NCBI GenBank assembly: GCA_016748015.1
Contig: JAAOMT010000128.1
Location: 2,131,426 to 2,195,425 of the forward strand
From: Geosiphon pyriformis
Taxonomy: Eukaryota > Glomeromycota > Glomeromycetes > Archaeosporales > Geosiphonaceae
Length of the DNA stretch: 64,000 bases
Direction: 5' to 3'
Shown: positions 7,520-64,000 of the stretch, in pieces
How positions within the stretch are numbered: the first letter of the stretch is position 1
Layout of the letters: each line of letters begins with the position of its first letter
Position numbers and translations under genes: made by a program
The notes under the pieces: model-generated
Told to the model about the DNA's origin: nothing
Seen by the model: only the letters and a program-made list of their open reading frames with translations
Databases searched by the model: none

Positions 7520-8206
7520 GTGTACTGATCTATAAAAAGAAAACTGTTATTTATTGTCAATAAAAACACCAGAAATTAGATAAAATTAATGTTTTATTTT
7601 TTACAAAAGAAAAAATTATTATTTTTAAAAATTTAGCAAAAACAAATTAAAAATAATTAAAATTTATTTATTTATTAATTAATTATATATTGACATAATA
7701 ATTTAATAACTAATTACACAATAATTAACTTAATTAAAAAATTTACAACAGATAATTATAATAAAATATTAATTTACAATAATTTAAAATATTATAAAAT
7801 AGTTAAAAATACAAAAATAGTTAAAAATAATTAAAAATATGTATATATATATAAATAGTTTTAATTAAAAAATTAAGTTAACAATAATTAAAATAATATA
7901 TAATAATAATTTTTATTTTTTAAAATAAATATTTACAATGTAATTTTTTACATACTTTTAATTATTTTAATAAATTAATTAAAATTAAAATAACAATTTT
8001 ATTTACATAAAAAACTATTATTAAATTTAATTATTAATTAAATTTAAAACAAATTATTACTTTAAAATTAATTATTATAAAATATTAATTAAATTTTTAT
8101 ATGTTTAATATTATGTGTTTTTTTATAAATTAATATTAATATTAATTTAATATTTATAGCTAAATTTATATATTAAAACTTTATTTATTAATATAAATAT
8201 ATATAT
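7520..8206. other. AT-rich DNA upstream of the decayed LINE
   Basis: Almost only A and T, with no frame or RNA. It may include the 5' flank of the LINE or an older repeat into which the LINE inserted. Confidence 0.4.
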
Positions 8207-11200
8207 AAAACTTTTTTTTCTTATATTCCAAAATTTTAAAAAAATACAACAATTTTGAAAAAAGTTTTTTCTGTTTTTAATTATTTATTCCTATTCAATT
8301 GAATATTACAAAAATTTTTTTGTTTAAATATAAAACTACTAATTATAATAGTAGTTTAAGTATAAAGAAATTCAAAAAAAATTTGGTATTAATTTTGTAA
8401 CTTTAGATTTATTTGCTAAAAAAAATGTAAAAAAGATGTTTTAAAAAAATCTATAATCAAAATTAGTATAAACAAGTTTTAAGATACATTTGGGTTTGTT
8501 AAAATATTTGGATTAAATACTAAAAGCACTATTAATACAGAAAATATAGACATAAATAAAAAGTTTTTTATAGAAAAAACCAGTTTTTAACTTAAAAATA
8601 ATAATAAATTAGAATACAAAAATATAGATATAACTTTAAAAAAACCAAAAAAAACTATTATGAAACATGTTTTTAGAAGATAAATTAACTTTAATATTAA
8701 TAGTAATAATAAAAATAATATTTTAAATAAAATTTTTTTTTTCTCTTTTTTTTTTAAAACTTTTGGTAAATATTTTGGTCTATAAGTTTTTTGCTTTGAA
8801 TATAAACTCTTTAACAATATTTGAAAAGTCATTTTAGGAAAAATTAAAAACTATTAAGAATTTTTTTTCTGATATAAATAGTAATAAGTTTAATAAATAA
8901 TAAGAATATTATAATAAACACTAATCTTAAATACTCGATAAATAATTAAACAAATTGGACAGTAATAATCAAAAAATTTTTTGTAAAAACATTATTAAAA
9001 ACTGTATAAACTGTATTTGTTAATTTTAATACTATTAAGTTAATCAAAATATAATTAATAAAGTTATAGCAAAAAATAATCATAAAATTAAATAATTAAA
9101 ATTAAGCTGATCTATTAACTTTTAAATAATTTATTTTTATTGGAAAAGATATAATCTGTATAATAAAAATTAATATTAATAAATAATTATAAAATATTAA
9201 AGATAAATTTAAGACTTTATTTTATATATTGTTTATAAAAATAAATACTTATGATTTTTAGAATTTTATTAGTTCAATTAATAAAAAAAACTTGTATAAT
9301 TAATTATAATTTTATTAATTATATTTATCTTAAGTATATTATTATATGTTTTAATTTAAAAAAGAGTTTAATTAAAACAATAACTGTAATTTTTATTATA
9401 AAAATGTTATTATTATTAAAGATTTTTCTATTTTTTTCTTAATATTATTAATGCTGTTTTGTTGTTAATTTTGCTGTTTAATAGAAGTTAGTAAAATTTT
9501 AATAGAAGTTAGTAAAATTTTAATAAGCTAATTTTTTTTTAAAGTATTTTTTTATACTTTAAATTATATATATTGTTAAATTTATAATGAAATAATCAAT
9601 TCTATGTCAATTATTTATATAAATACTTTGCAATAAAAGTTGATTTTTTTACTAGAAAATTTTGTTTGTAAGCTTTTCAAAAATATATGTAGTTATTTTG
9701 CTATAAAAGTTAACTTTTTTACAAGAAATTTCGATTATAGACTACTTAATAATATAAAAAAAATAAAAAAAATAAAAAAAAATTAACTAAAAAAGATATA
9801 AAAAGTATGTTAAGAAAATTATTTTAAATTTAAGCTTAAAAGTTACTAATAATAATAAAAATTAATAATTAATTAATTTCAACTGTTAGTATAAAATGAT
9901 TAATTTTAAACAAAAATAATTAATAATTTTTATGTTTTTTAAAGTGAATTTTATCAAAAAGAAAAGTTTTTTTTATATAATTTATTATAATATTATTTTA
10001 TAATTTAATATTTTTTTTTAATTTTTATCAAACTACAAGTTATTTTTACAAACTATAAATTATTTTAGTAAATTGTTAAACATTTTATTAAATTACTAAA
10101 TATTTTAGCAAATTTGTTTTATTGTTATATAGTTTAGTATATTGTATAATCTAATTATTACAATTGATTATATTTGTATTTTGTACAAATTAAATTATTA
10201 ATTAAATAATAATTAATTAATTAAAATAAATAATATATATGCTAATTAATTATAAAAATTATAAAAATAATTTTATGGTAAATAATATCTTAAATTTTAG
10301 TTAATAATATTGTGCTTTATTAGTTCAGTCTATTTTTAATTGTCTGTTAAGATTGTAATAAACATGATTATAACTCTTTTAGTTGTAATTTAATTAATTT
10401 AAAAAAAAAGAATTCTTTTTTTAATTATAGACCAATATAAATTTGCTTAAATTTATGCTAAAAAGTTTGCTTTTGTCATTTAGCCAATAGCTTTTAAAAA
10501 CAAATTTTGAACATTTATTATTGATAAATCTTTTTTTTAAGTATTTTTTAGTATTTTTTTTAGTTTGATTTTTTGAATAAAGTTAAGTTTTTTTCAATGG
10601 CTGTAAATAAAATAAAATTAAATACAGTTTTGTTAGCCTTAAAAAACAATTAATAAATTGGTTAAAAAATTAAATACACATATATCAACAGTTTTTTAGT
10701 TTAATTTTATATGTTAATTGTTAATAATCTTTTTATTACAAAATTAAATGAATAATATAGTAATAAAAAAAAGTTTAAATATATATATTAATAATAAAAC
10801 TGTAATAAAACTAAATTTTTTAGCATTATTAAATATAACAAAGTTAGAAGTTCAGTTAAATAATTTGTTTAGTTTAGTTATAAATTTGCTAATAAGATTT
10901 AATAATTTGGCTTTAGTTTTAAATATATTTCTTTTTTTATTATTCTAATAATGAATTTTATTTGAAAAATTATTACATATAATATTAAGAATATAAATAT
11001 TTTTGTTAAGCAAGATAATAATATTAAGTAATATAAAAAATTAAAAAATAAAATTTTAATTATTACTAAAACTAAGCTTTGTTTTAATATCAAACAATAG
11101 ATTGCAAATAAATTTGTAAATATAAAAGTGTTTACTTTTGGTTTGAATTTAAGATACATGAATATTAATATTTTGATAATTATAAATAAATATTTAGCTA

Positions 11201-14200
11201 AGTATGTTCAAAAATTTTAAAAATTTTGATAAGTTTATAATAATTTATTTATTGTTTAAAAACAAACATTTAATTTTTAAATTAAAATTATATATATATA
11301 TATTTTTAAAAATGCAGTTAAATTAAGCTTTTATTATCAGTTTTTTTATAATTAGTACATTCAATAAAAGCATTTTTTTATTTTAAAGATAATTTTAATA
11401 AAATAATATTAAATACAATATTAGTTTTAAAAAGTACATTAATTTTGGTTTAGTTAATTCTTTGATTAATAGTTATTTGTTAAAAGTTTTATATAGAATA
11501 ACTTTAAAAAAATTAAAAAAACAATTGATTACATTTTTATGTTACCAAATTTGGTTAATATAGTAACTAACAGAATAGTTTTAAATATAAGAAATTTTTT
11601 TAATATTGATTATTTTATTGTTTCTGTTTTTATTAATTTAGACAATATTTTAGATAAGTATTTAAATTTTTTCACAAGTAAATTAATAAAAATATAACTT
11701 TAAAAAGACTAATATAACTAAATAGACTTAATTTAAAAATATTACATTGGTAAATATTATAATATTTAGTAAAAATATTAGTTATTCAAAAAAAATTCTG
11801 ATTTGAATATTATATAAAATTTTATTTAGAGAATTGTTTGTTTTTTAACCAATAAAATTTTTTTCAAGTTTTAAAGCAAAAATTTTAATGGTTTTTTTAT
11901 CAAAATTTTATTATATTTTTATAAATTAAAGATTTTGGTTTCTAAAATTATTTAAATTTTATGTTTGAACTTTAATTATAAGTTAAATAATCTAATTATT
12001 TGTTAGCTATTATTTAATAAACTATATATATATTATGTTTAAAATTTTTTGGTATTAAATACTAATCTTAACATCATTAAATTTAAGTTAGTTAAAATTA
12101 GAAAAGTTTATTATATATTTAGGCTAGATAAATTTTGGTAAATTAAATTAATGGTATTATTAATAAAAAAATAGAGAATTTTAAAATCAATAAAGATTAT
12201 ATTATCAGAAAAATTTTTAAATATTTTTTTAGAAAAATAGTTTTAAATCATTTAGTAAATAGTAAAAATCTAATGTTAAAGTCTAAAAAAAATTAAATTT
12301 AAAGTAAATTTAATTATAAAAAAATAGACAAAGAAATATAAAGTATTGAAAAATATTTTAGATGTTTAATATTAACAATATTTGTCTTTAATCTATGTAA
12401 TTAATCACATTTTTTTTGGGATTATAAATAAAATTGGCTTTAATAAAATAATGAGTATTATAATAGAGCTGCTAAATAAGAAAATTTTTGGTTTGTTTAA
12501 AATTTTAAATAAATTTTGGAAACATTATAATTCTTTTATTTTGGATTTGTTACTGGATTTTTTTAATGTTTGTTTAATAAGTAAATTAATTTTTTAATTT
12601 TAAAAAAAAATTTTAATGTCAATAATTTTTAAACTATATAAATAAAAAAAGATTTTAATTAACATTGCTTTAATTAAAATTGTTTAAAAAATTTTTTTTA
12701 AAATCTTGTCTAACAAAATTTTTTTTGTTTATAATAAGTTTAATGTTTTTTGTAAAAACAATTTTTCAGTATTAAAAGATATTATTATACAATTTTTTAT
12801 CTTTGTATTGGTTTGGTAATAAAAAATATTTTAAAAAAAAATTGTAAATTTTAATTGGTTTTACAAAATATGTACAAACATATAATTTAATAAATTAAAA
12901 ATACTTAAAAAGCAATTTGGTTGTGTTAAAATATGTGACAAATTTGTTAAGTTTTTTGATAGTATTTATAAAGATAGAATTAATCAAGTTATAACTGATT
13001 TTGGCTTAATAAATAATTATTATATACATAATAGATTAGATCAAAATGAGATGTTTTTTTTTTCTAACATATTTTTTATAACCATTTTTTATATAAAATC
13101 AAAAAATAAAAGAGTGTATATAAGTATAGAATTGATTTTAAGTTTATAATTAAAACAAAATATATTAAAAATTAAACAGATATAATATTTTTTTTTGTTG
13201 CTAATATATTTGTTAATAATACAATTTAAATAAACAATAGTTAATTTGTAATTTAATATATTTTGAATATTGTAAGTAAGTTTTTTTGGATTAATAATAT
13301 TTTAATTATAAAATGACATTTTTTTTTGTTAATTAGTAGTTTGTTAATTTTAATTGCTAAAAAAAGAAAATCTTACAGATATTTAAGTATTTTTCTATTA
13401 ATATAGAGTTTATTAAAGTTTAACTTAGTAAAAATTTATTTAAATATTAAATTTTTTGTTGATAAAGTATTAAAAAAAATTATTTTTAATAAATAGTTTC
13501 TGTATTTAGTTTTAGTAATACTTTACTCAATATTAATTTTAAAATTCAATTTTGTTTTATTTTTAATAATATGTATAATAAATAAAATATTTTAATTCAT
13601 AAGAGCTTAAAATCAAAATTTAATTTGTCTATAAACTTTTCAAATAATGTAATATATTATTTTTTTTTATATAATTTAAAAACTTTTAAACAAGTATAAA
13701 CTAAATACAAGTTAGTTTTGGTGCTAAGTTTTTTTAATGCTTATAGTATTTTAGACTGGTTATTTAATCATAAATCTCTTAACTTATAAGTTTTAAATTA
13801 GTTTTTTTATTATTTTTTGTGTTTTCTAATTTGTATTAAAATTAGTATAATAAACAACTTTTTGATTAATATAGTTTATATATTTTGTAATTATAATTTA
13901 TTAATAATTAATTTTCTATACTTAGTATTTTGATTTTAAAATAAAACTTTTATGTTTGTAGTATTGTGTAACTTAGTTTTTTTCGAAATATTCTGCTTAC
14001 TTAAACAGTTTAAAATTGTTTTTGTTGAACAATTGCATAATAAAAAAACAATATTTTTGACTAAAAAATATTTAGATACTAAAAAAAATAAAATTTTTAA
14101 GACTCTGTTTCTAATTAATTTATATTAATTGTTTGGTTTTTAAATAATATAACTTCTTATTCTTGTAATTTGTTTTTAATTATTAGTTTTCAGTCTTTAA

Positions 14201-15640
14201 ATGTTTTTAATTTATGTAATTTTGGTTTGGTTTGTAAATGTTTAATTAATATTGATATAGTTTGTTTTTCTATCTATACTAATAGTTTTTTAAGCAATCT
14301 AAATATTATTAATATAAAAACTAATATTACAGTTTTTTTGAAGATTTAAGTTTGGGCTTAAGTATTAAAATATTTGAATTAAAGTTTTTTATAATAGCTA
14401 AGCTACAAATTATTATACTGGTTTTAGAATGTGTTTTTTTTTTGTGTAATTAAAATATTTTTTAACAGTTAGATTGCTTTAAATACATATTGCTTAGAAT
14501 TAGTTTTAATTTTATTGAATTTTTATAATTATTATAGGATTAAATAATAACATATTATAAACATTATCAAAAAAAAATTTAAGTATTAACTAATATAAAA
14601 TTAAAAGTTATTTTAAAGTTTTAAATAATAAGAGAATTAATATTTTAGCTAATATTGTTTTATTTTTAAATATAGTGCTTTTAATTTATATGCAAAACTA
14701 ATTTATTAAGACTGATAATAAAATTGTTTATAAAAATACAAGATATTTTATTTGTAAAGTTTTTTAGATAATTTATTATATCTATTAAGAAATTAAATTT
14801 GATATTAAAGTTTTAAATAATAATTTGTTTAAGAACATAGATTAAATCTAATTATTATTGGTTTAATATTCTAATTTTCTCATAAAAACTAAGTTTATAA
14901 GCAAATTATGATTAAAACACACTTTTATTTTATAAAAACTTTGTATTATAAACTGTTAATAACTGTCTATAAATATTTATATAATAAGTATTATTATAGT
15001 ATTTGTGTCTGTATTATAAAAAAATTGAATTTTAGATCATATTTTTTTTGTAATATAAATATTAGAGTTTACAACAAAGCATTATCTAGTCTATACAGAT
15101 TATTAGCTTATATATTTTAATTACTTTTTTTATGTTTTTTTAATATTGCTATGTATTTTGTTTTGTGTAAAATATTTGTTTTTAAAAAATAATTTTATAA
15201 GTCTTTTTTAATTTTTAAAAATAGTAAAATTGTTAATTATAAAATTATAGATTTTATATGTAGTTTTAATTTAGTTTATAAGAATAATATTTGGTTTGTT
15301 TGTTCTAAGTATTGAGTTTTCATAAAAAAAAGTAGTCTAATTTTATGTAATAGAACTATATTGATAATTATTATTAATCTATTATTTGTATTATCTAATG
15401 ATATCATTAAACTATTTGAAATTTCTAAGGCTTTTGAAATTAGTTTTAGTATACACAAATTGTATTTATTCTTTTTAGATATTAGAAATATAATTTCTGT
15501 GTATATAAACATATAGTGTTGTTTTAATTGGCCTGAATGGCTGGTTATATATAGTAAAATACATAATTTATATTCAGTTTAAATTATTTAGTTTGATGTA
15601 TTATATTAGATAGTATTTGGATTTTACTTATTAAATATAA
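8207..15640 (+). mobile_element. LINE, extremely C>T/G>A-mutated copy (copy 1)
   Basis: This stretch aligns along its length with the better preserved LINE at 53.8-60.6 kb. Anchors: the 5' inverted repeat (8207-8220 with 8257-8271) matches 53,825-53,900; 8,680-8,720 matches 54,294; the ORF1 end at 10,748-10,945 matches 55,570-55,765 in frame; 12,382-12,597 (KLWKHCDG becomes KFWKHYNS) matches 57,232-57,447; 14,908-15,120 matches 59,800-60,005; and the 3' end, 15,537-15,640, matches 60,465-60,567. Differences are dominated by C to T and G to A, giving changes such as His to Tyr, Val to Ile and Asp to Asn. Copy 1 is about 0.8 kb longer between about 8.8 and 10.4 kb, perhaps from an insertion. 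No protein is encoded; the frames still open are chance survivors. Confidence 0.8.
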
Positions 15641-47339: not shown

Positions 47340-48700
47340 TATGCCAAAATGGTGTTTATAACACATCAATAATAGGCAATATTAAGCATTGCTATGTCAC
47401 GCGTATTATTTCTTGCATGGTCACTGTAGGACCAAGGCTCATCAAGAAATGCCCAGCGGAAGTCCTCTGATTATTTGGATGTTAAGATTCGTTCTGGTTA
47501 ATAACACGGACCTCTAATTTATCCACCTTGCTGATCAGACGTTGTCGAAAGCGATAATCCCCACAAAGCGTTTTCCTGAAGTTTTTGTGTAATCTTTCTC
47601 GGCTTGCGATTGACCATGTCCGACACGTCAAAAGGAGGAATGACAATAGGCCTGAATTCGCGGGTAAAGAATCCAACTGATTCCCAGTGAATTTCACTTT
47701 GCAGATGTATGACTTTTCGCCGGGATCAATGGAGACTGCATGAACAAAGCCATCTGCTCGGGTTTCACGGAGCTGTTTTTGCGTCTTGTATACCTAGGCA
47801 ACTTCTCTCGTTAATTTTGCGATAGTAGGTGAGCTTGCGATCCGGCATTCTCTTGTGAAGAATGGGCCACCTATCATTATGCCTCTTTTTTTTCGAAATG
47901 AAAGCATGCTTATCATTATCCAGAATGGTGGTAGGCTTATAAAGATGTGGAGTAATTATCGACAGATTATGGAGATGAGTGACATAGAAACGGTTCCATG
48001 TGGATTTCAAAAAATTCTGTGCATAAATTATCATTATCTTTTCGAGCTCAAAATGATAGTGTGCTGATAATCCTTGTCGATTCGTATTATGCCTAATTAC
48101 TTCTTCCCTAACAATCAATGTTTAATCTATTACCTCATCAATAATATTCGCGGGCGCTTCTCCGTGCATAACATTCCGAGACACAAAACATTTCGCGTGA
48201 ATTTTCGCTCGCCCATATTCTAGCTTCTCGAATTTTCTCATCTTCGTGTTCATTAGCGTCTTTTCCTGCCTGAAAATCTGTATAAAACCGAAGTTTATCT
48301 TTGATAGATTGAGGCTTTACCCAGGCCTGTTGTGATTGACTGATATGGGAATGTTTGGTATAAAGCGACGATGTCGACTCCAGTAGACAATAGTATTATA
48401 AGCAAATCTCGTCTAGCTCAATCACCGCTTCAAGAGCTGCATTTGAAGATGGTTCGGATACACCTTGATTAATAGTGTACGGGTGAGAGTATCATCCATC
48501 TTCTGGCGTTTGCGACAAGCTGTTGTCGCTTTCCCTGCGCTTTTCACCTGTTCTGGCACTCTTTTCGACGGTAGACAGGTCTTCTCCTCTGCATTTGACA
48601 GATAAAGACTGTGTTGATTGAAAGAATGTCTTCTGAGAGTTCACGAAGTTTTGCAGAATGAAGGAAAAAGATATATTGGAAGAAGTTGAAGGCAAAAGCA
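47340..48700 (-). mobile_element. TnpB/Fanzor-like transposon relic A
   Basis: Minus-strand fragments in order: a 5' part shared at DNA level with relic C (48,690-48,440), then ending AHYHFELEKIMIIYAQNFL and HLYKPTTILDNDKHAF (48,060-47,900). The RuvC-I strand follows as GFVHAVSIDPGEKSYICKV (about 47,745-47,690) with its Asp intact. An internal deletion then leads to IVIPPFDVSDMVNRKPRKIT, the RuvC-II region (Asp where Glu is expected), and YRFRQRLISKVDKL at about 47,550-47,505. Frameshifts separate these pieces, and no zinc ribbon or RuvC-III is readable. TnpB homologues in eukaryotes (Fanzor) are RNA-guided DNA nucleases carried by transposons; this copy cannot encode one. Confidence 0.7.
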
Positions 48701-48853
48701 TTACTAAGCAATTAATTAGATTAGTATTTTATTGATCGACCATCAGTTCTAATCTTGCTGGCAGTGGTACAACTGACGATTCTGTTCAACGAAATTCTGG
48801 ATAATATTTCAACGATTAATAGAGACTCATATAGTGAGGAAGATCCATTTTTC

Positions 48854-51316
48854 ATGGAAGGAATCCAGTTGGGTGATTGTACTTATGAAGATAGTGACGA
48901 AAATGACGTTGAGGAATCAGAAAACGAAAATATCTATCAAGAGCAAGAGCAAGAGGAAGGGGAAGAGGAAGAGGAATATCACAGATATTGGGAAGATAAT
49001 GATGTTTACGAGAGTAGCGAAGACTGGCAAGATGATTATAGTGATCCTAGTGACTGTCCTGAAAGAGAAATAGAAACTTATATAAAACCAAAATTTGAGA
49101 GTTTTGAAAATGATTCCGAAAAAATTTTTGTTCCATTTGATTCAAATGATTATAATGGCAAGTTATTAATTAAAATTTTACATTGCCCACAAATGCATTT
49201 CAAATATTAATGATACCGAGATTTTAATTTTTAGAATTGAATCGACTTCCAAATGTAAGTTCGTGGCAAGACAGATTTCTACAAAATTCCCATCACGTAA
49301 GGCGTACATGTTATCGCAATGATCTTGGTCATAATTCAGAAGCATCAGATCTGTCAGATATAGAACACAGTGACTCTGAAGGGTCTCGAGACCTTACTGA
49401 GGACACTCACTCCCTTGTTGGAATGCCAAAACAAATTTCAGGCTCTATTAAACGCCTTCGTAGATCAATAATTAACCAACAAGTCAATGCACCTTGGTTT
49501 CAAAAATCTTTTCTGCGTAAGGATAAAGGCCACCCAAGACAAATTGTTCATTCTCCCTCTAGCAGCAACCATTTTCAATGTGCTAATTCATTAGCCGTAT
49601 GTCCTACAGATTTCGGGTTAAATCATGATATTTACACCTATACCTTAAATTTAGTGATCAAAGCTGGTCAACGAAGCAAATTCGATCCAACTTCTAGCAA
49701 CCCATTAGTTGATAAAGATGAGATTAGAGGAAAAAAGTTATTTGAGGAGGCAGAAAGTGATATTGAACATTTTCCAACTCCCTATCTTGATGAAAATGCA
49801 AAAATTTTAATACAACCATTTCGTAAACATTTCAACGCGGCTGACAATTTATCATTCAACCACCTTTCTGAGCACGCCGCTATTGTTTTACAAAAACAAC
49901 CATATTTCATTACTCATAAGTTTGGTTATTTATGTGTGGGAGGAGGGGAAGACGCTATTTCTGTGTATAGCACAATGAATAACCAACCTGATCTCTTACT
50001 CCAAACAAAGATTGACAGTAGTTACCCTATTTTAATCAACAGTGCTGATATATTTCGCTGGGAAATCACAACTACAACTGAGTTAGAAAAGAAGTATTTT
50101 TACCTTCTCATCGTTACTGCCAATCAATATGGAGTATTCTTCTTTGAACTTCCACCATACCGTAATTCAATACCTAACACCAAAGAAACAAAATATTCTT
50201 CACCCAAACTTATTAAACACTCAAGTGTCTTTGAGCCAGGAGATCCGTCAAGGGCGATGGTCAATGACGCACGAATAAGCCCCAATGGAAAATGGGTCGT
50301 TGTGGTGTCTGATTCTTCTAGCAATTGGATCTTTGATGTAGTAAAAAAGGAGAAAAGGAAATCCCGGAAATCCCGGAAAAGGGATTTGCTCGCCAATGTT
50401 CCTTTTGTAATCGGGGAACCCCGGCATTTGAACAATATCCAGGTTCTTAATCGATACATGGCAGGAGAATATAGATCCCAATATGTTTCATGGAACAGCA
50501 ATTCAACAATGTTTGCGCAATCCTCAGACACCCATTGCTTTATTATTGTATGGGGAATGCCAAAAGCCGAGATATTACATGTTATTGACACTGGAGGCCC
50601 CACTTTCGCGATCAAGTTTAATCCTTTAAGGGAACAATTGCTTGCGTTCGCCAATAGGTAATTTTTGAAAACAGGGTTACTACTTTAAATTCTTAAATTC
50701 ATTGGTAGAGACTGCAATTTTCGCTTTTAATATTTTTTAATATTTGTCATTTAGATTTGGGTTTTTCCATCTAGTTGATTTCAGTCAATCAACTGATCCA
50801 AAAATCACTTGGAATACTTCAACCCTTCCCTTTCAAGGTGTACCTCATGAAGAAAAACCTCAACATGAGATCCTTGATACATCCACCTCAGAGTATTTGC
50901 CCCCATCGATCATCCAAAGAGCGAAACATGTCTTTCGCCATGAGATTTATATGATTAGCCGACGAGCTAGAAATCACCCTAAATATCGAATATTCAGCAC
51001 CATTAACGGTATAGAATGGTCATCAGATGGGGAAAATTTATATATTGCTTCAAAGTGTCGGGTTTTGACGTATACAATAATCGAAAGACCCGTGAAGAGT
51101 TTATTTGAAATGTGCGCGTGCATAATTAGGCAATGGGCTGAAGAAAAACGTGATGCTGTAAAACATGGAAGAGAGATTCCAGAGATGTGGAAGGGAATAG
51201 ATCGAAAATGGAATTATGTTAGCATTGGGGTCAAAGAACAAATTTTCCATGGCTTGGGATTTGGCAGTCATTTTGAAGCAGAAACCCAGCTTTTTGATCC
51301 ATATGGGAAACTTTGA
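48854..51316 (+). CDS. WD40-like protein, DUF2415 type (tentative)
   Basis: Three exons, 48854-49157, 49235-50657 and 50755-51316; 762 residues. The first intron must use a GC donor (AATG|GCAAGT...TTTTTAG) to keep frame; the second is GT-AG. Residues 1-105 are very acidic (EEGEEEEEYHRYWEDNDVY). The middle carries strand-rich repeats with WD-like spacing: SFNHLSEHAAIVLQKQPYFI, YLCVGGGEDAISVY, DARISPNGKWVVVVSDSS and YVSWNSNSTMFAQSSDTHCF. The C-terminal exon has FGFFHLVDFS and STINGIEWSSDGENLYIASK. It resembles fungal WD-type proteins with a DUF2415 end; the function is unknown and the assignment is from pattern only. The frame is open upstream of the ATG to at least 48,755, so a 5' exon may exist. 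The gene begins about 150 bases from Fanzor-like relic A. Confidence 0.7.
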
Positions 51317-53820
51317 AAACTATTTGAAGCACCATTGTGGATGCATATTATGAGAATATGGAAATTTTGAAATTTTCATGAAAAAATGACGGTCAAATAA
51401 ACCCAAATCTGGTAAAGAGCTTGTATAATAAAGATTATCAAAATACTGGGACTTAAGATTTGAGATTCCACATTTTCCTGAATATTTCACGCTTTTACTA
51501 ACATTTGATTTTGATCTGCGGATGAATTGTAGATAATCCAAAATAAAACCAATTTTTTTCTTTAATACTTACTTAAAAATAATCATTTATTGAATACGTC
51601 AAAAAAACTTAATATGATAAGAAAAACTTTACCTATTGTAAATATTTCGCATCCACAAAAGAAAACATAATTCTCTTACTGTAACTCAAAAAAAAAATTT
51701 TTGTCAAGCCAAAAAGACTTTTTAGCAAGTCAATTTGGCATAGGAAAATTTACAATACATAACATTTTGAAAGAAAAAGTGAATTTCTCAACAAAAAATT
51801 AAGTCTTCCACTCTTAAACTTAAAAGAAAAAAAACACTAAATTTTTTCACATTGAACAATTCTTAACATTATAGCTTGACCAAGCAAATAATACAAAATT
51901 AGAATTCTTTAAAACTTCAAAAAAATATGAAAAAGTTAATGCAAATAATAGTAAATAAATGTAATTAAATCTTTTATTTAATAATACTATAAATAATTTA
52001 TCAGATTTATTAGAATTTTAAAAAAAAATACCACATATTGTTAATTAAATTGTAAAATAAATTTTATTTTACTATTTATTTAATAAAAAAAATCATTACT
52101 CTTATTAATAATATAAAAATTTAAAATATTGTAAATATTAAATTCATTTTTAAAATTCAACAAAAAAATAATTTAGATTACTGAAAATCTTATATATATT
52201 CAAAAATTTTATTATATAACCAAATTCTGTGATTTAACTTTTAAAAAATCCAATTTAAACTTAAATACTTTATTAAATATAATAATTTTATATATAACAA
52301 ATAAAGCAGTGGCTATAATATAAAAACTAAGTTAACAAACCAATTTAAAAAACTTGAAATGTGACATAAAAATTAAATATAAATTTAAAACAAGTAATTT
52401 AAACTTTAATATTATAATAGAATTAATACTTAAAGCTTTTTTATTAAATACAACTTTTTTAAAATATTAGTCTTGATAAGTACAATATTAAATTTTAAAA
52501 ATATTATATAAAACAATAACTTCTTTTTATTTTAAAAAATCTAAATGCTGTTTTTTATCAAAGTTAATCAATAAAAAAAACAGTTTTAACAAATTTAAAA
52601 AATAACATATTAACAAACTTTAATTTAATAATAAAAACTTTACTAAATACTTTAAAAACATTTTGAATATTATAAAAATAATAGCAGTAAAAACAAAACC
52701 AAAACCACAAATTATAGCAGGCTTTGTAATTTTAAAAATAATAAAAAAAAGATATTTAATAAATTAATTTTAGTACCAGTATTTAAAAATTCTAAAATGT
52801 AAATTTTATACAAAAAATTAATATTCTATTTAATAATTAATTTAATATTAATAAAATCGTGTTAAAATTAAAATACAATTTTAATATAAGCTATTTTAAT
52901 TTTAACAAAAACATCAAAAATTAAAATAAAAACTATTATTTAAAATTTTTTTAATAACTAATATTTTTTTAGAAAAATAGTTTTAATTTTTATATTAGCA
53001 ACTTAATTTTTTAAGCTAAATAATATTTTAATATTAAATAAAGGTATATGTTAAAATATAACTTGTTTTGTTTTTATAATCAGTAATAATTAACCGAAAT
53101 TATCTTTATTAAACAATATAATTAAATATTAATCTAAAACTAATTTAATAAATATGCTGTTATTATTATTTAAAACTAAAAAAAACTATTATTTATAGCC
53201 AAAATAAATTACATATTATAATCAAGATTGGTAGTAAAAACACTGAAAAAACAAAAATTATTAAGAAAAAAATTATTTTTTAAAATTTTAAAAAAATTTG
53301 TTATAATAATAATAACAAAACTAAATTTATTAATATTTATATTAACAAAAAATTAAATAAGTCTTGATATATTATATTAAAAAACTTTAATTAAAAAATA
53401 GTTTTTAATCAAATTAAAAACTATTTTTTTTTAAAAAAAGTATTTTATTATGCTTTATCTAAATGTTTTTACAATTAAAATTTTGTTTCAAGTAATAACA
53501 TTTTCAAAAACTAAAAAATAATGCTTGTTGCTTTTTTTACTTATAATAAAAAAAAAAATTTAATTTTTAATAATAATTATAATAATATTGTTATTTTTTT
53601 TATTACATTTTACGAGTAAAGCCCAAATGCCAAAAATCGAAATATTGTTATCAACAATAATTTTGTTAATTTAATTAATTATTACATACATAAAAATGCT
53701 ATAAATCTAAAATATATTTAATTTAATAAAAACAATTATTATAAAATAATTTATTAAATTAAATAATTTGAAAATTATAATTGATTTTTAAAAAATTTAT
53801 TTATACAATTATATTAAAAT
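51317..53820. other. AT-rich repeat DNA upstream of LINE copy 2
   Basis: From about 51,930 nearly all A/T. 52,770-52,850 matches 3,630-3,700. I read this as an older decayed repeat into which LINE copy 2 inserted. No gene seen. Confidence 0.45.
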
Positions 53821-53824
53821 AAAA

Positions 53825-53900
53825 AAAAAAAACTTCTTTCTCTTATTTATCCTTAAATTCCAAAAAAAAGTTAAATAGTTTTTTGAAAGAAGTTTTTTTT
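53825..53900. repeat. 16-bp perfect inverted repeat at LINE 5' end
   Basis: The left arm, 53,825-53,840, ends CTTCTTTC. The right arm, 53,885-53,900, begins GAAAGAAG, each with eight A or T residues. The loop is 44 bases. The same hairpin is present, mutated, at 8207-8271 in copy 1, so it belongs to the element. Confidence 0.7.
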
Positions 53901-53987
53901 ATTATTCAGTATGATAAATTCAAACTGTTTTTGCTTGATTATGAAGCCACCATTGGTTCTAGTATTGCCATTCTGAATAAGTCTATC

Positions 53988-55769
53988 ATGGAGCCTAGTT
54001 CTAATACTAGTGTTAAATTTACTGAGTCCAAAAAGAAGAGAAGAGGTAATGCTTTAGAAGATAATATTGGTAATAGGAAAATTACTACTAAGATGTCAAG
54101 TGATTGTTCTTGAGGCTTTAAAATTGGTGATACCACCGAATCAGATAGTGTAGACATAGAGAAGGAATTTTTGGTTGAAAAAACCAGCTTTGATTATGGA
54201 GATGGTAGCACTCTTATTAGAAGGGACTTGGAACAAACACCTAAGAATTCAAAAATTCTAACCAAAAAGACACTAAAAAAACCACTAAGGAAAATTAACT
54301 TCTTGGGTGATGATGGTAATAATATTTTGTTGAACACTTCATTGACATTCCTCTTTTTCTTGAAAATTCTGGTCAACATTCCGGTTAGAAAATTGTTTGC
54401 TTTAGATATTGGCTTGAACAAGGTGTATAGAAACTCTTCTCAAGAAAAACTTTCAGTAATCAGAAAATTATTTTTGGGTATTAATAGTTTTAAGAGGGCT
54501 TCTACTCTCTCAAAATTTTCTGAAATCATCTAAGTGACATTCACTTCTGAATTGAATTTAATAAAAGCCACTGAAAAAACTACTGATATAAAGATTTTAG
54601 TAAATACTGATCTCAAAAAATCTACTGGGTGCTCAGATCGGACTGTAGTGTTAAAAAAAATTCCAGTTGGAACATCAGCTGAAACTGTGCATGCTGTACT
54701 ATCTGAATATGATGTGGTGGTGTTAATTAAGATGCAATTAATAAGATTGTAGCAAAAAGCTGTAGTTAAATTTGGTAAAATTGAACAGACTGATTTGGTT
54801 ATAGCTTATTGGTCTATTTTGATTGGTAAAGATGTTATGTGTGTGACCAGGGCTGATAAAGATAAAGAATCATAAAATATAAGGGATCATTATAGAGCAC
54901 TGCTCTATACTCTGCCAATAGAAATAAATGCTCATAACATCTGGGATTTTATTGGCTTAGTGAGTGAAAAAACATGTGTAATCGATTATTATCCTATTAC
55001 ATATGCTCAAACCAGATGTGTTGTTGTTTGTTTTAAATTGGCTAAATTTTTGGATGCTGTCATAGACACTACTTTGGTTTTGAAAGATGTGAATCTGTGT
55101 TGGTCTTGTCTGAGTTTTTCTAAATGTGCTAAGTGTGAGAAAATAGGCCATACATTATTAGACTGTTCTATAAATAGAAATCTCCTCTCTTGAAGGTCTT
55201 CTCATAGAGCACTTTCAGACATAGATAAGAGCAGACTGGCTATCATCTATGCCAAACATTTGGCTTTTATTGCTTATCCTGTCACTTTTGGTGGAATTTC
55301 TTAAGCAAAGATTGCTGGTGGATCTTTGTTTTCTTCTCTCTTTATGCATAATAATTTGGTTAATTCTGGCTCCTCTTTGAAGATAAAGCCTATCTTATTT
55401 GTTACAATTGATATTGAAAAAAAGTTTGCTGTTTTGGAGAGCAGTCTTATCAGTCTCATGGGACAAATTAGTAAGTTGGCTAAGAAATTGGACTTATTTA
55501 TGCCAACAGTTTCCCAGTCTAATCTTAGATGTCAGCTGCCAGTAACCCCCTCATTACAGAATCAAGTGGGTAATGTAGTAATGGGAGAAAGTTCAAGTGC
55601 GACCACAGGTGGTGAGACTACTGCAAATTTGGACTTTTTTGCCTCTCCCAAGATGAAAAGACTAGAAAACATGCTGGAAGGACTTTCTGCTTTGGTTTTA
55701 AGTCTGATAGCAAAATTTAATGGTTCAATTTTGGCTGGTAGTGCATTTTCCAAACTCTCTTCTCAATGA
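53988..55769 (+). pseudogene. LINE ORF1 (zinc-knuckle nucleic-acid-binding protein) with nonsense codons
   Basis: One reading frame runs from ATG 53,988 (MEPSSNTSVKFTESKKKRR) to TGA 55,767-55,769 without any indel. It is interrupted by about six stops: near 54,111 (TGA), 54,531 (TAA), 54,750 (TAG), 54,873 (TAA), 55,191 (TGA) and 55,302 (TAA). Each becomes sense by undoing one C>T or G>A change. A CCHC knuckle is present, CAKCEKIGHTLLDC. The C-terminal part (IEKKFAVLESSLISLMGQIS, KMKRLENMLEGLSALVLSL) is probably coiled coil. In life it would coat the LINE RNA. The end overlaps the ORF2 start codon in ATGA. Confidence 0.8.
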
Positions 55770-58700
55770 CCAGTCTAGTTTAGAAGATTGCCATATGCAA
55801 TATTAAAGGTATGAACAATCTAGCTAAACAAAAAGATATTGTACATTGGCATAAAGACATGAACAATCTGGTTTTAATTTTTACAAAAACAAAGCTGAAA
55901 AAAAAGATCCATCTATGAATTGTTGACAAATTTAGTAATGTTTAAGTGTTTATTTTAGGTTTGAACTCTGGCTACTTGAATTTAAGTATTGCTGTAGTTA
56001 TAGACAATTTTTTGGCAAAACATATATATAAGGTTTTTAAGGTATCTAGTTGGCTTCTTTCTATCAAGTTACTTTTTAAAAATAGACTTTCTGTTTCGAT
56101 TCTGGGGCTCTATGCTGGTACTTTTTTTGTAATTTGATTCTCCCAAGCTGGTAATATCAACTCTCTTATTGTCAAAGCTACAAATGAGTCCTCTTTTATC
56201 ATCCTTGGCAGTAATTTTAATAAAAATGAGTCTTACAAATGTGCAAGTTTTAAAAAATGTTTCAGTTTGGGTTTAGTTAATTCCTTAGTTGGAAGCTTAG
56301 CAGCCAAAATGTCTATGTGGGAAAACTCCAAAGATGTTGCTAAAACAATTGACTATGTTTTTGTTTCTTCAAATTTGGTCAATGCAATTTTATACTGTGA
56401 TGTTCTGAGTATTAGTGAGCATTTTGATACTGATTTTCATGCTGTCTTTGTGTCTGTGAGTTTGGGTGGATTTTTGGATGTGCAGTTAAACTTTTTTCAC
56501 AAACAGACAAACAGAGATTATTGAAAGTTTGACATCAAAAGTGCTAATAAGGTGACATAAGATGAGTTTAATGATGCTATGATAGCTAATACTGCTATGT
56601 TCTCTGATAAGTTTGTTACATCTAAAAAGTATTTGGATCTGGACACTATATAGGACACTGTTTACAAGGTAGTGTCTCTTTCAGCTAATGGTGTTTTCAA
56701 AAAATAATAATTTAAGGACTATAATAAAGTGTTCACCAAAAAATTGTCCAGGTTTTACAAACTAGAAGTTTTGGTTTCAAGATTGGCTAAGGCTTCTTAT
56801 GAAGTGGTGTTTAACAAATTTGTCTCTCTTTTAAAACATTGGGACTCTTTGGATCCTGACAAGACATTTATTATTCAGGTTTTTATTTGCTCTGGTGCAG
56901 ATTTTGATTGTATATATTTTGCTTTCTTTGGTATAAAAAAGTCTTATAATGCGTTCAAGCTGGCTGAGTCTTTATGTGCTGAAGAATTAGGCATTAGATC
57001 TGTTATTAAAAAATAGATAAAGAGTTTTGTAGTTACAAAGACCACACAATCCATAATGTTTTGAAACATTCTTTTTGGAAAGTGGTGCTGAACCACCTGG
57101 TTTCTGATGGTAGTTTAATTGTGAATCCAGTTGATGTTAAAAATAATATTGACAAGATTATAGAAAATTGAACAAGAAAGAGGGTGGTGCTGTATAATAT
57201 TCTTGATTCATAGCAATATCAATACCTGCCATTGGATTATATTGACAATAATGTCTTTTCTAGAGTAATAGATACTATTAACTATAAAGATTTGGTGCAC
57301 ATGGTCAAAGATCTGCCAGATAGCAAAACAGCTGGTTTGTTTGGTATTACAAATAAACTTTGGAAACATTGTGATGGTTCTGTGCTTGGTATGCTGTTAA
57401 ATCTCTTTAATCTCTGTTTGGTTTGTAAATCAGTATTTCAACTCTAAAAAAAAACTTGGGTGTCTATGATTCCTAAGCCTTATAAGTAGAAGAGTATTCT
57501 GACTAATACTAGACTGATAGTTTTGATTGAGACTGCTTGTAAAATTTTCTCTAAGATACTTTCTAATAAGATTTTGTTGGTATGCAGTGTGTTCAATGTT
57601 CTTCATAGTGACAACTTCTCTGTGCTTAAGAGCACTACTACTTAGTCTCTTATTTTTGCCATCAGTTCGGTTGTTAAAGATACTTTAGAAAAAAATTGTG
57701 AGCTTTGGCTTGTTTTACAGAATATGTAGAAGGTCTATGATTCTGTGGGTTGGTACCACTTATAGAATAGTTTGGTTTAGATTAAGATGTATGATTGTTT
57801 TATCAGATTTTTTAAGAGTATTCACAATAATTATGTTAATTGTGTCATGATTGATTTTGGCCTGATTAATGAGTATCAAGTACATAATAGTCTTGACCAG
57901 AGTGAGATGTTTTCTTTTTTGCTGTAAAGGATCTTCTATGATCCCCTTTTATGTGAAGTTAAAAGGCAGAGAAGTTTGTGTAGATATCGTATTGACTCTA
58001 GGTTTGTTGTTAAAACTGACAAGTTAGAAAACCAAGATGGTTTAACTTTGTTTTTGGCAGCTGGTGCTTTTGTTGATAACACAATATGGGTGGAAAGTAG
58101 CCAGGCTGCCACTCAGTACATTTTGAACATTGCTAGTGAGTTTTTTAGTATAAATAATATCTTTATTAATAATAAAAAAACTGTAGCTATTCCTATTAAC
58201 AGAAAGATGAGAGAAGTGTCATTGTCAATAAGTGGTCTGCTGATTTCAATTGCTTGTAGAAAAAAATCTCATAGGTATTTTGAGATATATTTGTCATCTG
58301 AGAGTTTGTCCAAATCCAGTTTGGCAAAAGCTCATTCAGATGTTAGGTTCTTTGTTAATTTGGTTTTGAGGAAGACTATTTTTGACAAACAGTTTCTCTA
58401 TCTGGTGTTAGCTGTGTTACAACCCATTGTTGATTATAGATTTCAATTTAGTTTTTTTTCTAAAAGTGTGTGTATTAAGTAGGATACATTAATTAGAAGA
58501 GATTTGAGACTTAAGACTGGACTACCAAAAGACTTTTCTAATAAGGCTTTTCATCATCTGTCTTTGTATGATCTGAAGTCTTTTAAACAGTTGCAAGCTG
58601 AATGCAAAGTGACTTCTGTATTAAGTTTCTCAAATGCTGGTAGGCTTTTGGGTCACTTATTTATTCATAGATCTCTTGACCTACAGGTTTTAAGTTGGTT

Positions 58701-60397
58701 GCCTGTTCACCCTTTATATTACCTGGTTAGGTTGCATGTTAGTTCAGTTAACAATTTTTTGGCTGGTGTTGTTAAAATTTTTTGAATTGTGATATGTCTC
58801 TTGGGAACTTTTCTCATACAATATTCTATTTTTCTGGTGAAATGCCAATGTCTTTAATTCTGAAAGATTATTTGTTTTATGAAGTTTTATGCTTACTTAA
58901 GAGATTTGGAGTTGCTTTTGTCAAACAGCTATATACCAAAAAGAGTTTAATTTTTGACTGGAAAAGCTTTTATTGTTGGAAGAGACTTGATCCAAGAGGC
59001 CCAGTTTCTTATTGGTTCAATTTGGTATGTGACTTTCTGGCTTACTTCTCTTTTCATAATGATCTACCTGTTGCCAAACTCTAGTCACTGGATTTTGGTA
59101 GTTCAGATGATGTTTTTTAGCTGAAACAATGTTTTTTTGTTTCTAATTTAAATGTTGTTAAGGTTTACACAGATGAATTTTTAATAAATATTGGTATGCA
59201 GAAGATGAAGTATGGTGCAGCTGCTTACTTCTCAGATGTAGATCTAGATATTAGCATTAGGGTTAATGGGTTGATTTCTTCCACTTTGGCTGAATTGCAG
59301 ATGATTGCTTTAACTTTGGAGTGTGTTTTTTCTTGTGATTCTGTTGTGGTTTATTCGGACAATTAGGCTGTCTTAGACACTTGTACTACTAAGTTAGTTT
59401 TGGCTTTTTCAGACTTCTGTAACTATTGCTGGATAAAGTGATATGGTATTGTAAATCTGATTAGAGAAAAAAGGCTTAGTGTTTCTTGGCATAAGGTTAA
59501 AAAACATTCAGGTGTTTTGGATAATGAGCATGCTAACAAATTGGCTAATTCAGTTGCAAATTCAGATTTGGTGCTTTCTGTTTTGATTAAAAAAATGTTC
59601 ATTAAGGCTGGTGGAATGGTGATGTTTGGTAATGTTTAGCATTTTGCTCAGGATGTTTTTAAGGCTGTGGATTATGCTCATTGAGAGGCTGAACCTGATT
59701 CTGCTGTTATTAACAAAGATATAATTAGTAATGTGAATTAGGTTTATATTGCTTCAGTCTGACATCCCGACTTGCACATGGTGGTTGAATTCATCAACAA
59801 GTCTACTGCTGATCTACACTCATATTTTTTGAAGACTCTGCACCACCATCTGCTGGTTGTTGTGCAGAAGCACTTGTATAATAGAGATTATCCAAGTGTT
59901 TTGTGTCTTCATTATGGAGAAATAAAGAGCTCTAATCACTTTTTTGTATGTGCATTTGACTCTGAAGTCCATAAGAATCTGCTTGCTTCCCATTTGGCTA
60001 AGTGACATGCTGTATCTGATTGGGTCTCCTTTTGTCTTGAATCTTGCAAGTGCTTTCTTTGTGTGCTTTTGATGATGTGCTATACACCACTTTGAGCAAA
60101 GGCTTTTTGTTCAAAGATTGATATCTGAAGACTGCATCTGTTTTGGGTAATGTTAAAGTTGCAGAAAGAGTTATTATTAACTTTGTTCAGAGTTTTGGTG
60201 TTGCTTATCATGCTGACATATGGTTGGTTAAGGCCAAATATAGAGCCTTTATAGAGAAAAGTGGTTTAGTTTATCATAATGGTTTTGTGTTTTCTGTGAC
60301 CCAAGGTTTTTTGTCTTTGCTCTCAGCTGGAGTAGTTAAGTTGCTTGGAATTGCTGAGACACTTGGTGTCTGTTTTAGTTTTTGTAAACTCTGCTGA
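55766..60397 (+). pseudogene. LINE ORF2 (endonuclease, reverse transcriptase, RNase H), inactivated
   Basis: ATG at 55,766 overlaps the ORF1 stop. Endonuclease remnants: IILGSNFNKNES (G-D-F-N expected), TIDYVFVSSNLVNA and ISEHFDTDFHAVF. RT remnants: DLPDSKTAGLFGITNKLWKH, SVLKSTTTQSLIFAI, VYDSVGWYH, and the catalytic strand AAGAFVDNTIWV, where the second Asp of FVDD is Asn. RNase H remnants follow: VKVYTDEFL, SSTLAELQMIALTLE and VVVYSDN. Many TAG/TAA codons stand where Gln is expected. Frame shifts lie near 57,010 (A run), 58,777 (T6 run) and about 60,010-60,140. It cannot retrotranspose by itself. Confidence 0.85.
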
Positions 60398-60580
60398 TTT
60401 TTTTCTGGTATTAGTAGCGTGGTATCTGTTATAATAGATTTGTAGTATTGCTTTGATCAGTCTAAATGGCTGGTTATGTATAGAAAATACATAATTTATG
60501 CCTAGTTTAGATTACTTAGTTTAACGTATTGTGTTAGGTAATATTTGGGTCTCACTCATTAAATGTTAAAAAAAAAAAAA

Positions 60581-61365
60581 TTATATTATTATAAGAAAAG
60601 AATTTAATATTAAAAAAATTATTTTTGTACATATTTTACATTAAAAGACTATAAAAAAACATAATTTTATTACTTTTGCTTATAAAGCTAATAACTTTTT
60701 TAAATTAATAAAGATTAATAATTTTAAAAAAATTAAAAATAGCTAATTTATTTAAAAAAGTAATATAATATTAAAAAAATAAAATTACAGTTTTTTTATA
60801 TTTTAACATCACAAAAATTTTTTTATTTATATTTATCATAAACAATTTAATAGTTTGACAAATATAATTTAACTAAAATCTAATTATATACAACTTTATT
60901 ATTAGATAATAAACATTTAAAACAATTAAAACTATTTTAGATTGACAAAAAAACAAATTTTATACTTTTATTTTATTAATATAACAATTAAAATAATTAA
61001 TTTTTTTAATAAATTTAATAAGAAAAAAAATACAACAAATAATTTTTATTTGCAAAAAAATATTTTAAAATTTTATTTGGTAAAGTTAATAATATAAAAA
61101 ATTTAAAAAATTTAAAAAATTAAACTATTGCAAGTATAACAAAAAATAAAATAATTGTTGATTTAAATATTTTATTTACATATATTAAACAAAAGATTGT
61201 GATAAAACAGTTGAAAAAAGAAATACTTAAATTAATTTCTTAATTTTAATAATATTAATTATTATTAATATTTTTTAATTATTTTTTATTGATTTTCATT
61301 ATATAAGAACAATACATTTAATAGCTATAACATTTTTGTCTAATTGTTGATTAATTATTCGTGCA
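60581..61365. other. AT-rich DNA 3' of the LINE
   Basis: Almost pure A/T until about 61,330, where composition changes sharply at the edge of the Fanzor-like relic. No gene. Confidence 0.45.
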
Positions 61366-61369
61366 TGAA

Positions 61370-62860
61370 AACGCTTTAAACCGAATATAAACTTAATCCG
61401 AACTTCCATCAACCTCGGAGTGACCATTGCTGAGGGCTATTTCATATCTGTCCACTACAGCACCGCAATTCCGATAGTTGCACACGTCAGACCATGCAAC
61501 GCTGTTTACATTACCACACCAGTTTCGTTACAAGTTTTGGATGATAAATTGAACTCCTAGGCCTTGGCGATCAGGCGTTGACGGTAAGTCTTTCGCTTAA
61601 TTTTTCTTTCTTACGACTTGTGACCCCTCAAACAGCGGGATGACGATTGTATCAAATTGTGAGTGAAGAACACGATCACTTTTCTGTAAATTTCACTCTG
61701 CAAACCCATAATTCTTCGTTTGATGCGCGAGAATGTTTTGTCGAGTCGCTGGAACTTGGGTTTCTTACGCTTTGAAGTAGAAAAGATGAGTTTGACTTTT
61801 TTTGAAATGAGTTCATCCATATATTTGCACAGGCGAATAATTCGTCCGACATCAGCAGAGCCTATTATGCCACTCTTAGAGGGGGGAATATCAAGTGAAA
61901 GGTGTACAAATGCCAGGATCAATAGAGACTGCATGGATGGAGCGTTTCGCGGACTTTTTTTTTGCATCTCTTTTATTTGTTGTGAATATATAGTTTTGAA
62001 ATGGAAAAAGCTGTGTACGCTTTTATCTAAGAAAAAAGGGTTTAAAATTAAAAATCCAGTTTTTAAAAATTTTTTCAACTAAAATCTTTAGCCTGTGTCC
62101 ATGTACATAGACATGCACTGACGAAGTGTGCAGATGCGAGACATAAAACAAATTTGAGAATGTCGAAATGCGAATTGTAATTGTCTGAGGCAATAATTTA
62201 CGCAACTGGATAGAAAGATGTATGCTGACACATGTTGTTGCTGTGTATAATTTCTCTCGTGATGTCAGAACGTGATCAAAATTTTTATCAGTTATATTGG
62301 TAGGAGCCGAACTTAAGCAACCCCATACTAGAATGCCGAGACGGACGACGCCTTTACAAAACTGTCGCTCGCCACATATAGCTAGAACATCATCAAAAAG
62401 TAGACGCTTCTGTTGAAACTTCATACGCTTCAGCCATTTATTTTCCATGATAAATTTTTGCTTCAACACACCACAACACCTTTGTTCCATCTCACCACAA
62501 TAATCAAACCCATCCCTTAAGGGCTAAGAAAGCATACTCATCGGATGTTTAATCGTTGAAGAGAACCACGAGTTTTGCAGAATGTATCGAAGAAGGTCGA
62601 AGGTAAGCGGCACAGACGACCAAGGTAACCACAACTTTTGAGACCACTCTGCGACTTGCTCTTTCCAATAGGGCCTTAAGTCCGAGTCGTTTGAAGTGAC
62701 GCCTGAGTCAATATCGAGAAGTTCATAGGTTGAAAATCGTGAAAGGAGGAGCTCTTTTTGCTTGGAAACCGTTCTTGGGAGCGAAGGTGTGGCGACGGTG
62801 CCAATGGCTACATTCTGGGGAGTTAGTTCGTGGAAAAAAGGAGGTGATAAAAAAATTCTC
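61370..62860 (-). mobile_element. TnpB/Fanzor-like transposon relic B
   Basis: Minus-strand N-terminal part about 62,840-62,600 (VATPSLPRTVSKQKELLL, SNDSDLRPYWKEQVAEWSQK). RuvC-I, SIHAVSIDPGICTPFT, is at about 61,940-61,890 with its Asp. A frameshift leads to GIIGSADVGRIIRLCKYMDE, then KFQRLDKTFSRIKRRIMGLQ and FDTIVIPLFEGSQVVRK, the RuvC-II strand with its Glu (about 61,650-61,615). A zinc-ribbon end follows, WCGNVNSVAWSDVCNYRNCG, then AVVDRYEIALSN. The catalytic RuvC-III Asp, expected in the second position of D-R-D, is Tyr. With frame breaks and this substitution it is dead. It is the most complete of the three copies. Confidence 0.75.
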
Positions 62861-62939
62861 TGAAATAATGATTATCAATAAAAATACTAATCGGTAACTT
62901 AATGCTTATCAGGTTCAGAATCGCTAAAATAAATACCTA

Positions 62940-64000
62940 CTTCCCACTTTCTTGAGCTAGCTTCTCAAAATGTTAATATCACTACCGCCACTCTGTTACC
63001 AACACAGATTACTTCTACGCCCATGTCTCTGGTGCAAAGCAAAAAGAGGATTTCGAGCGGCAAAAGCAACTCCTCGATTTTCAACCTACTCCAGCGATGT
63101 CGGGCAGGTATCAATTACAAACGATCAGGGCTTAAGACTCTATTGGAATGAACCCACCGTGATAGACTTTTTCCATTTGCCTTCGACTTCTTCAATATAT
63201 CTTTTTCGTTTATTCCGTACAACTCGTGATTCTTTTCGACAATGCGACCTCCGATAAGCATAAACTCTTACAAGACATCTCGCCATTAACACAGTCTTTA
63301 TCTGCCGCGTACAGGGAATGAGAGCTTCTTGTAATCTAAGAGAGTGTCAGAACAGGCGAAAAGCGCAAAGAAAAAACGACAGTAGCTCATCGCAAACGTC
63401 AGAAGATGGAAGATACTCTCAATCGTACACTATTAATCAATGTGTATTTGAACCATCCTCAAGCAGCTCTTGAAGCAGTGGATGGGCTTGACAAGATTTG
63501 CCTACAATATTGTTGTCTAATGGAGTCGATATCGCCGCTTTTATACAAAAATTCTCATTTGGGTAATTAGGCTTGGGTAAAGCCTCAATCCATCAAAGAT
63601 AAACTTAAGCTTTATACAAATATTTGGGGAGGAAAAGACGCTAATGAACACGAAGACAAGAAACTCCAAAAAGCTGCAATATGGGGCGAGCGCAAGTTCA
63701 TGCGAACTGCTGTATGTTTCGTAATATTGCTTCAGGATATGCGAGCAAAGCGCCTGCGAATATAATTGATGAAGCATTGGTTGCTACGGAAGAAGTAGTT
63801 AAGGTAATGTTAATTGGCAAAGTCTATCAGCACACTCTATTTCGATCTCGAAAAGATCTGCGGCAAACAACCACAATTCGTGAACAGAATTTTTCGGACC
63901 ACATAGAATCGTTTCTATGTCACTTTCCGTTGATGCTTAATACACATCTTTATAAACCTACCACCATTCTGGATAATGATAAGCGTGTTTTGTGGCCTCC
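62940..64000 (+). mobile_element. TnpB/Fanzor-like transposon relic C, partial at window edge
   Basis: Plus-strand counterpart of relics A and B. Near the start are SITNDQGLRLYWNEPTVIDF (about 63,110-63,175) and a DNA stretch, 63,180-63,480, that aligns with the 5' part of relic A. At the window end SFLCHFPLMLNTHLYKPTTI leads into LDNDKRVLWPP, matching relic A at 47,900-48,000. The catalytic part would lie past 64,000. Several frame changes are visible, so it is probably also inactive. It points away from relic B. Confidence 0.65.

Follow-up and report, generated by a model that had tools for sequence, protein, structure and literature searches.

Three relics in the Geosiphon pyriformis genome are very probably dead copies of an IS607-type transposon with a Fanzor2 nuclease gene

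Three similar stretches lie in the last 17 kb of a 64,000-nucleotide piece of Geosiphon pyriformis DNA (the whole piece that was analysed, here called the window), and they raise the question of what kind of element they derive from and whether an intact member of its family survives. A sequence-only reading had proposed three relics of TnpB/Fanzor-like nuclease elements, and six-frame reading together with DNA searches establishes that relics A, B and C are real and are copies of one family of ~1.9 kb. They are very probably dead copies of an IS607-type transposon that carried two genes, tnpA and a Fanzor2 tnpB.

The likenesses on which the sequence-only reading was built are all present (Table). 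HAVSIDPG can be read in both A and B, HLYKPTTILDND is common to A (in an ORF at 48121-47765, minus strand) and C, the YRFRQRLI helix of A has a decayed counterpart, YRQRLI, in B, and the Cys-based zinc ribbon of B reads CGN..CNYRNCGAVVDR. A repeat search also finds A and C alike at the DNA level, with matches in inverted orientation over five blocks of 66-117 nt (72-86%). Relic C had been described as a partial copy on the plus strand; the strand is right, but it is the window edge that cuts the copy, which runs on to C370:2196256 (window-equivalent 64831) for a total of 1986 bp. Relic A has three internal deletions, which took the 5' half of tnpA, ~170 nt of RuvC and the zinc ribbon, and its DNA search against other copies shows gaps at query positions ~1000 and ~1250. 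The left and right ends of B are not recognisable.

Table. Features of the three relics, in window positions.
Feature	Position	Strand	Basis
Relic A, IS607/Fanzor2 copy that spans from a left-end remnant to the right end	47349..48744	-	end motifs and gaps against other copies
A, left-end motif GATG..ATCAATAAAATACTAATC..TTGCTTAGTAATGC	48744-48700	-	
A, right-end motif TATTGATGTGTTATAA	near 47349-47371	-	
A, remnant of the 3' half of tnpA (serine recombinase)	48592..48696	-	tblastn with L075 TnpA, weak alone (E 0.04); DNA match to TnpA region of other copies
A, TnpB N-terminal part DTLTRTLLIKVYPNHLQ, corresponding to KIRVYP.. in intact relatives	48365..48499	-	weak individually, collinear
A, RuvC-I motif HAVSIDPG (DPG type), reads FVHAVSIDPGEKS	47719..47742	-	six-frame reading
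A, RuvC-II helix and glutamate region YRFRQRLISKVDKLEVRVINQNE; 47586-47488 reads DYRFRQRLISKVDKLEVRVINQNES	47488..47586	-	tblastn with family zinc-ribbon probe, E 6e-7
A, 3' tail with the right end, the guide-RNA position of Fanzor/TnpB loci (putative RNA)	47349..47440	-	
Relic B, IS607/Fanzor2 copy	~61420-62865	-	RuvC-fragment match C370:2193108, E 1.4e-16
B, tnpA remnant (serine recombinase), frames DIDSGV / FKRLGLKALLERASRRVVSKVVVT	62554..62703	-	DNA match to TnpA part of L003; tblastn with L075 TnpA at 62698-62627 weak (E 0.17)
B, RuvC-I motif IHAVSIDPGICTPFT	61882..61938	-	E 7.8e-22 jointly with RuvC core helices
B, RuvC core helices SADVGRIIRLCKYMDELISKK...IYR	61683..61886	-	L075 TnpB search, E 3e-13
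B, decayed zinc ribbon CGNVNSVAWSDVCNYRNCGAVVDRYE and RuvC-III	61441..61518	-	reading by eye against family alignment
Relic C (L005), IS607/Fanzor2 copy	62846..64000 within window	+	DNA and profile searches
C, tnpA remnant YFYAHVSGAKQKEDFERQKQLL ... AGINYKRSGLKTLLE*THRDRLFPFAFDFF	63010..63277	+	tblastn, E 6e-8 and 6e-14
C, TnpB N-terminal part KRQKMEDTLNRTLLINVYLNHPQ	63394..63480	+	six-frame reading
C, TnpB middle part with HLYKPTTILDND (63945-63980)	63648..63998	+	reading and repeat search

The relics belong to a large family. With relic A DNA as query, a search of the 124.7-Mb assembly (406 contigs) returned about 40 further copies, 69-84% identical over pieces, with a best E of 6.5e-200, and these matches are far above chance level. 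The TnpB/Cas12f zinc ribbon, PF07282, exceeds its cut-off at 68 loci (the best at 2.8e-18), many of them copies already found by DNA search, and a RuvC fragment of copy L022 gives 130 matches, relic B among them. Merging the match lists within 3 kb yields 178 TnpB-like loci, or 236 loci once TnpA fragments and right ends are added, counts that are estimates because they take in first-look candidates and weak matches up to E 1e-3. The family thus reached roughly 180 recognisable loci.

By its sequence, the nuclease gene is a Fanzor2, encoding a RuvC nuclease with a DPG motif, an alternative glutamate and a zinc ribbon. In A, B, C and most other copies RuvC-I reads HAVSIDPG, with DPG instead of D-hydrophobic-G. 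In the family alignment, the canonical RuvC-II place reads IVIPPF and holds no glutamate; an alternative RuvC-II glutamate stands six residues ahead of the zinc ribbon (QNEAYTSKTC in copies, EAYTSKTC in many), and at the family level the PF07282 ribbon lies downstream of the split RuvC. The combination of DPG and alternative glutamate is a molecular fingerprint of Fanzors that is otherwise found in their close bacterial relatives (Yoon et al., PMC10711439). The best PDB match is the mimivirus TnpB-like protein L79 (5.7e-9 and 6.4e-9), and the NCBIfam model guided_TnpB scores 2.4e-17 over the domain, yet stays under its whole-protein cut-off. The proposed TnpB/Fanzor-like nuclease type is therefore supported at the level of the family. 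Pfam scans of the A, B and C fragments themselves gave no PF07282 match, in A because it has lost the zinc ribbon together with about 170 nt of RuvC, and in the C fragment because its ribbon falls outside the window (C370:2195952, E 1.6e-5), so the TnpB assignment of the three relics rests on the family. Other profile matches of single fragments (Resolvase in the RuvC fragment of B, COLFI, LpxI and others) were below cut-off and were taken as chance.

A separate lineage comprises L021, L023 and L024, with GIFLRALLNGCIKFE ends (support for L021 with L023 100/99). Five of its loci were found, all broken, and upstream of its TnpB there is only a doubtful fragment of TnpA. In L021 and L023 an interval of about 88 nt lies between FQTW and YSPT, inside RuvC-I; in L021 its borders read ACCTG/GTAAGT...TTAATAG/GTATTC, and in L023 the donor site is mutated. 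Leaving the interval out restores TWYSP, exactly as in other members, and it is therefore likely a spliceosomal intron, as predicted from these borders and reading frames.

The sequence-only reading had imagined an intact master copy elsewhere in the genome. None was found at any of the ~180 loci, and the whole-genome search for full-length copies that it proposed found no intact tnpA or tnpB in the searchable assembly. All scored matches fall in frames that are short or broken; the longest open one measures 251 aa and has stops within the match. A TnpA frame at C319 stays open for 192 aa but no longer has the RVSS motif with the catalytic serine. DNA identity among 510 compared pairs has a median of 72% and a maximum of 84%, so none of the copies compared stems from a recent burst. 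With no intact gene and no pair above 84%, the family looks long dead, the absence of an intact copy being short of proof in an assembly with gaps. We give only a slim chance to the alternative that some copy is still functional or domesticated, through a conserved guide RNA or a gene that is intact and bears an intron, and that the relics are its dead siblings. Those gaps leave it some room, and a copy of the second lineage at C354:385587-386144, one of those with the 88-nt interval, keeps a frame open over 201 aa and has just one stop in the part that matches. The right-end tail is also as conserved between copies as the zinc-ribbon region, a comparison biased by the selection of copies that have a right end. 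Against this stand the broken frames, the lost serine motif and the identity ceiling. Because no intact copy was found, the family offers no ready nuclease tool.

The dead-transposon reading adds a second gene, and the sequence-only reading, largely right and partly supported, was incomplete in having overlooked this upstream tnpA. An ORF upstream of copy L020 matches the resolvase family at 1.8e-4, slightly under cut-off, and a genome search with PF00239 led to six places, and in at least three cases a TnpB copy follows directly downstream. Side-by-side copies give the TnpA reading YARVSSAKQKEDLERQKQLL..SDVGSGINFKRSGLKTLLE..THRDRLCRFAFDLFQYIF, and the ancestral tnpA motifs are YARVSSAKQKEDLERQ and SDVGSGINFKRSGLKTLLE. 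All significant PDB matches of the TnpA fragment are IS607-like serine recombinases (3lhf, 3lhk, 3ilx, 6dgc and 6dgb; 2e-8 to 6e-3), MJ0014, ISC1904, ISC1926 and IS1535 included. TnpA remnants occur at 74 loci, 39 of which have a TnpB locus no more than 3.5 kb away, where chance predicts ~1%; the other 35 have no TnpB match nearby and are presumably more decayed copies. Many copies, B and C included, carry IS607-type TnpA remains upstream. Within the window these remains are clear in C, weak in B and limited to the 3' part in A; those of A and B are individually weak.

The left end of the element reads GATGAAAAGATTTGC, with CC or CT just before it in the clearest copies, and at the right end, CAATCCATCC, copy alignments stop abruptly and the next base is mostly G. 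A 23-base right-end pattern occurs at 92 sites and its reversed control at none. Both ends are sharply defined, and next to them stands CC(G), which complements the GG core of IS607: CC on one strand is GG on the other, and GG is the known core of these elements. Related short repeats (TTGCTTA-TAATGC-TAT) inside both ends would suit putative TnpA binding sites. Searching the assembly with the joined flanks of 8 copies returned only the flanks themselves and no empty site, and the exact core dinucleotide is therefore still a candidate, as is insertion that leaves the target unduplicated. Six right ends with no TnpB match were inspected and proved to be copies of this same element that had suffered deletions or decayed further; nothing among them pointed to a MITE burst. 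The inferred mobility stands as past mobility only, on the evidence of sharp ends and dispersed copies.

The same ends weigh on the possibility of a Fanzor1, or of a Fanzor2 taken over by a eukaryotic cut-and-paste transposon (Fanzor2*), either of which would bring terminal inverted repeats as well as target-site duplications. Fungal DNA transposons commonly carry Fanzors (PMC3627910; PMC10711439), but here no terminal inverted repeats were recognised between the left and right ends, IS607-type TnpA remains lie directly upstream in the main family, and the element is compact at ~1.9 kb, all of which makes this explanation very unlikely. An IS200/IS605-type element mobilised by an HUH (Y1) transposase can be practically dismissed, since TnpB is common to IS200/IS605 and IS607 but the HUH transposase PF01797 has no match anywhere in the genome (control positive), PF01385 (OrfB_IS605) has none either, a serine recombinase was found instead, and the active site has the DPG/Ealt layout.

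For the IS607-type transposon, the genome directly shows the two genes and the order in which they stand, and likewise how sharp the ends are, how many copies there are and how far they have decayed. The ancestor was an element of ~1.9 kb with a left end, tnpA, tnpB and a ~70-nt non-coding tail at the right end. By analogy with known families, the most likely mechanism is that TnpA would have cut the element out in circular form and joined it into a CC/GG dinucleotide with no target duplication. TnpB, loaded with a right-end RNA whose guide was the flanking DNA, would have cut sites lacking the element, thereby favouring its retention and spread. The family came to occupy roughly 180 recognisable loci before it apparently died out. 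The recombination chemistry, guide RNA and DNA cleavage in this scheme we infer from those families.

The right-end tail is where such an RNA would be expected. In subfamily 1 the TnpB reading closes ..GIFLRALLDGALVLQ-TGA and is followed by about 70 nt of non-coding tail, which is the place of the guide-RNA sequence in Fanzor and TnpB loci (PMC10432273). Folding of the tail gives a hairpin, with single-sequence z-scores of only -1.2 to -2.3, and covariation is almost nil: the consensus fold of one subfamily is a hairpin with a single both-sided change, and that of mixed subfamilies shows no structure. Searches of the tail found no Rfam match and no RAGATH-18. Given this covariation, these z-scores and the Rfam result, a guide (omega/re) RNA at the right end is only putative.

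Entry into the genome was probably horizontal, because intact relatives sit in giant-virus-like contigs. Three of these, the IMG/VR loci L075, L077 and L079, are 48-57% identical to the second lineage over the zinc-ribbon region and collinear over RuvC, and L075 and L079 have the same tnpA-tnpB order, with TnpA upstream and overlapping TnpB; they differ in having intact frames (438-571 aa stop-to-stop), where those here are broken. By sequence, the elements appear closest to giant-virus IS607 elements and mimivirus L79. Poribacteria MAG loci L068-L073 are 42-45% identical and group as a separate clade (100/99) in a small tree, whose deep forks do not resolve the candidate donors. Pro-Fanzors, the bacterial IS607 TnpBs, share the DPG and alternative glutamate (Yoon 2023, PMC10711439).

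Fanzor2 in IS607-type elements has been known since 2013 (Bao & Jurka, PMC3627910), when the fungal Fanzor2s tabulated came from Saccharomycetes only; Saito et al. found Fz2 broadly present in fungi. The main texts of the papers cited here make no mention of such a large family with TnpA in such a genome. The giant-virus and eukaryotic IS607 elements ISvMimi and Acanthamoeba ACa-1/-2 likewise combine a serine recombinase with Fanzor2, with no TIR recognised, a DPG RuvC-I and an EAYTSKTC zinc ribbon, but the family here differs in its roughly 180 loci, its complete decay and a second lineage that carries what looks like a spliceosomal intron. The presumed link from bacterial IS607 TnpB to eukaryotic Fanzor1 is formed by Fanzor2 elements (PMC10711439). 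A two-gene IS607/Fanzor2 element of prokaryotic type may have spread to 180-240 nuclear loci under its own serine recombinase and died, while a sister lineage gained a spliceosomal intron in its nuclease gene, leaving fossils of the transition by which bacterial TnpB became eukaryotic Fanzor; on this wider reading we are evenly divided. A large fossil set with both genes and both ends bears on the extent of spread that an IS607 serine recombinase can achieve for an element inside a nucleus, on whether RNA-guided homing helped, and on how the spread stopped. The Fanzor1s SpuFz1 and PpFz1 have the same RuvC and zinc ribbon, but are larger, sit on eukaryotic TIR transposons and lack an IS607 TnpA.

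Two of the decayed IS607/Fanzor2 copies in the window, relics B and C, lie head to head, with C's left end starting exactly where B's left end is lost. Elsewhere in the window, a copy resembling a non-LTR retrotransposon, almost complete and collinear with a second element, has fallen to 13% GC. In the alignment with that element, T stands at 61% of the C positions and A at 58% of the G positions in this copy, a pattern that looks like RIP-like hypermutation; the nearby IS607 relics retain 40% GC.

Coordinates of the features
Feature	Sequence	Positions
Retrotransposon-like copy	window	8181-15521
Collinear element	window	53801-60450
B/C junction	window	62846-62865
TnpA copy with left flank	G000 C310	449942-450529
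Same, second occurrence	G000 C397	2373-2960
L021	C354	384126-387323
L091	C121	293000-295200

One TnpA copy, together with its left flank, is present on two contigs with equal scores. Probably the contigs overlap at their ends or a duplicate was left uncollapsed, and copy counts may therefore be slightly too high. In L021 and L023, members of the separate, prokaryote-derived tnpB lineage, an 88-nt GT-AG interval lies within RuvC-I, and its donor site is mutated in L023.

The right-end tail, 3' of tnpB, is shorter in a subfamily (L022, L035, L049 and L046), where a hairpin TGATTCTC..GAGATCA replaces TGGTC..GACCA; its one apparent both-sided pair change is too little as proof of an RNA. L091, a derivative of ~0.65 kb, carries an internal deletion but keeps both of its ends recognisable, and is possibly a non-autonomous form.
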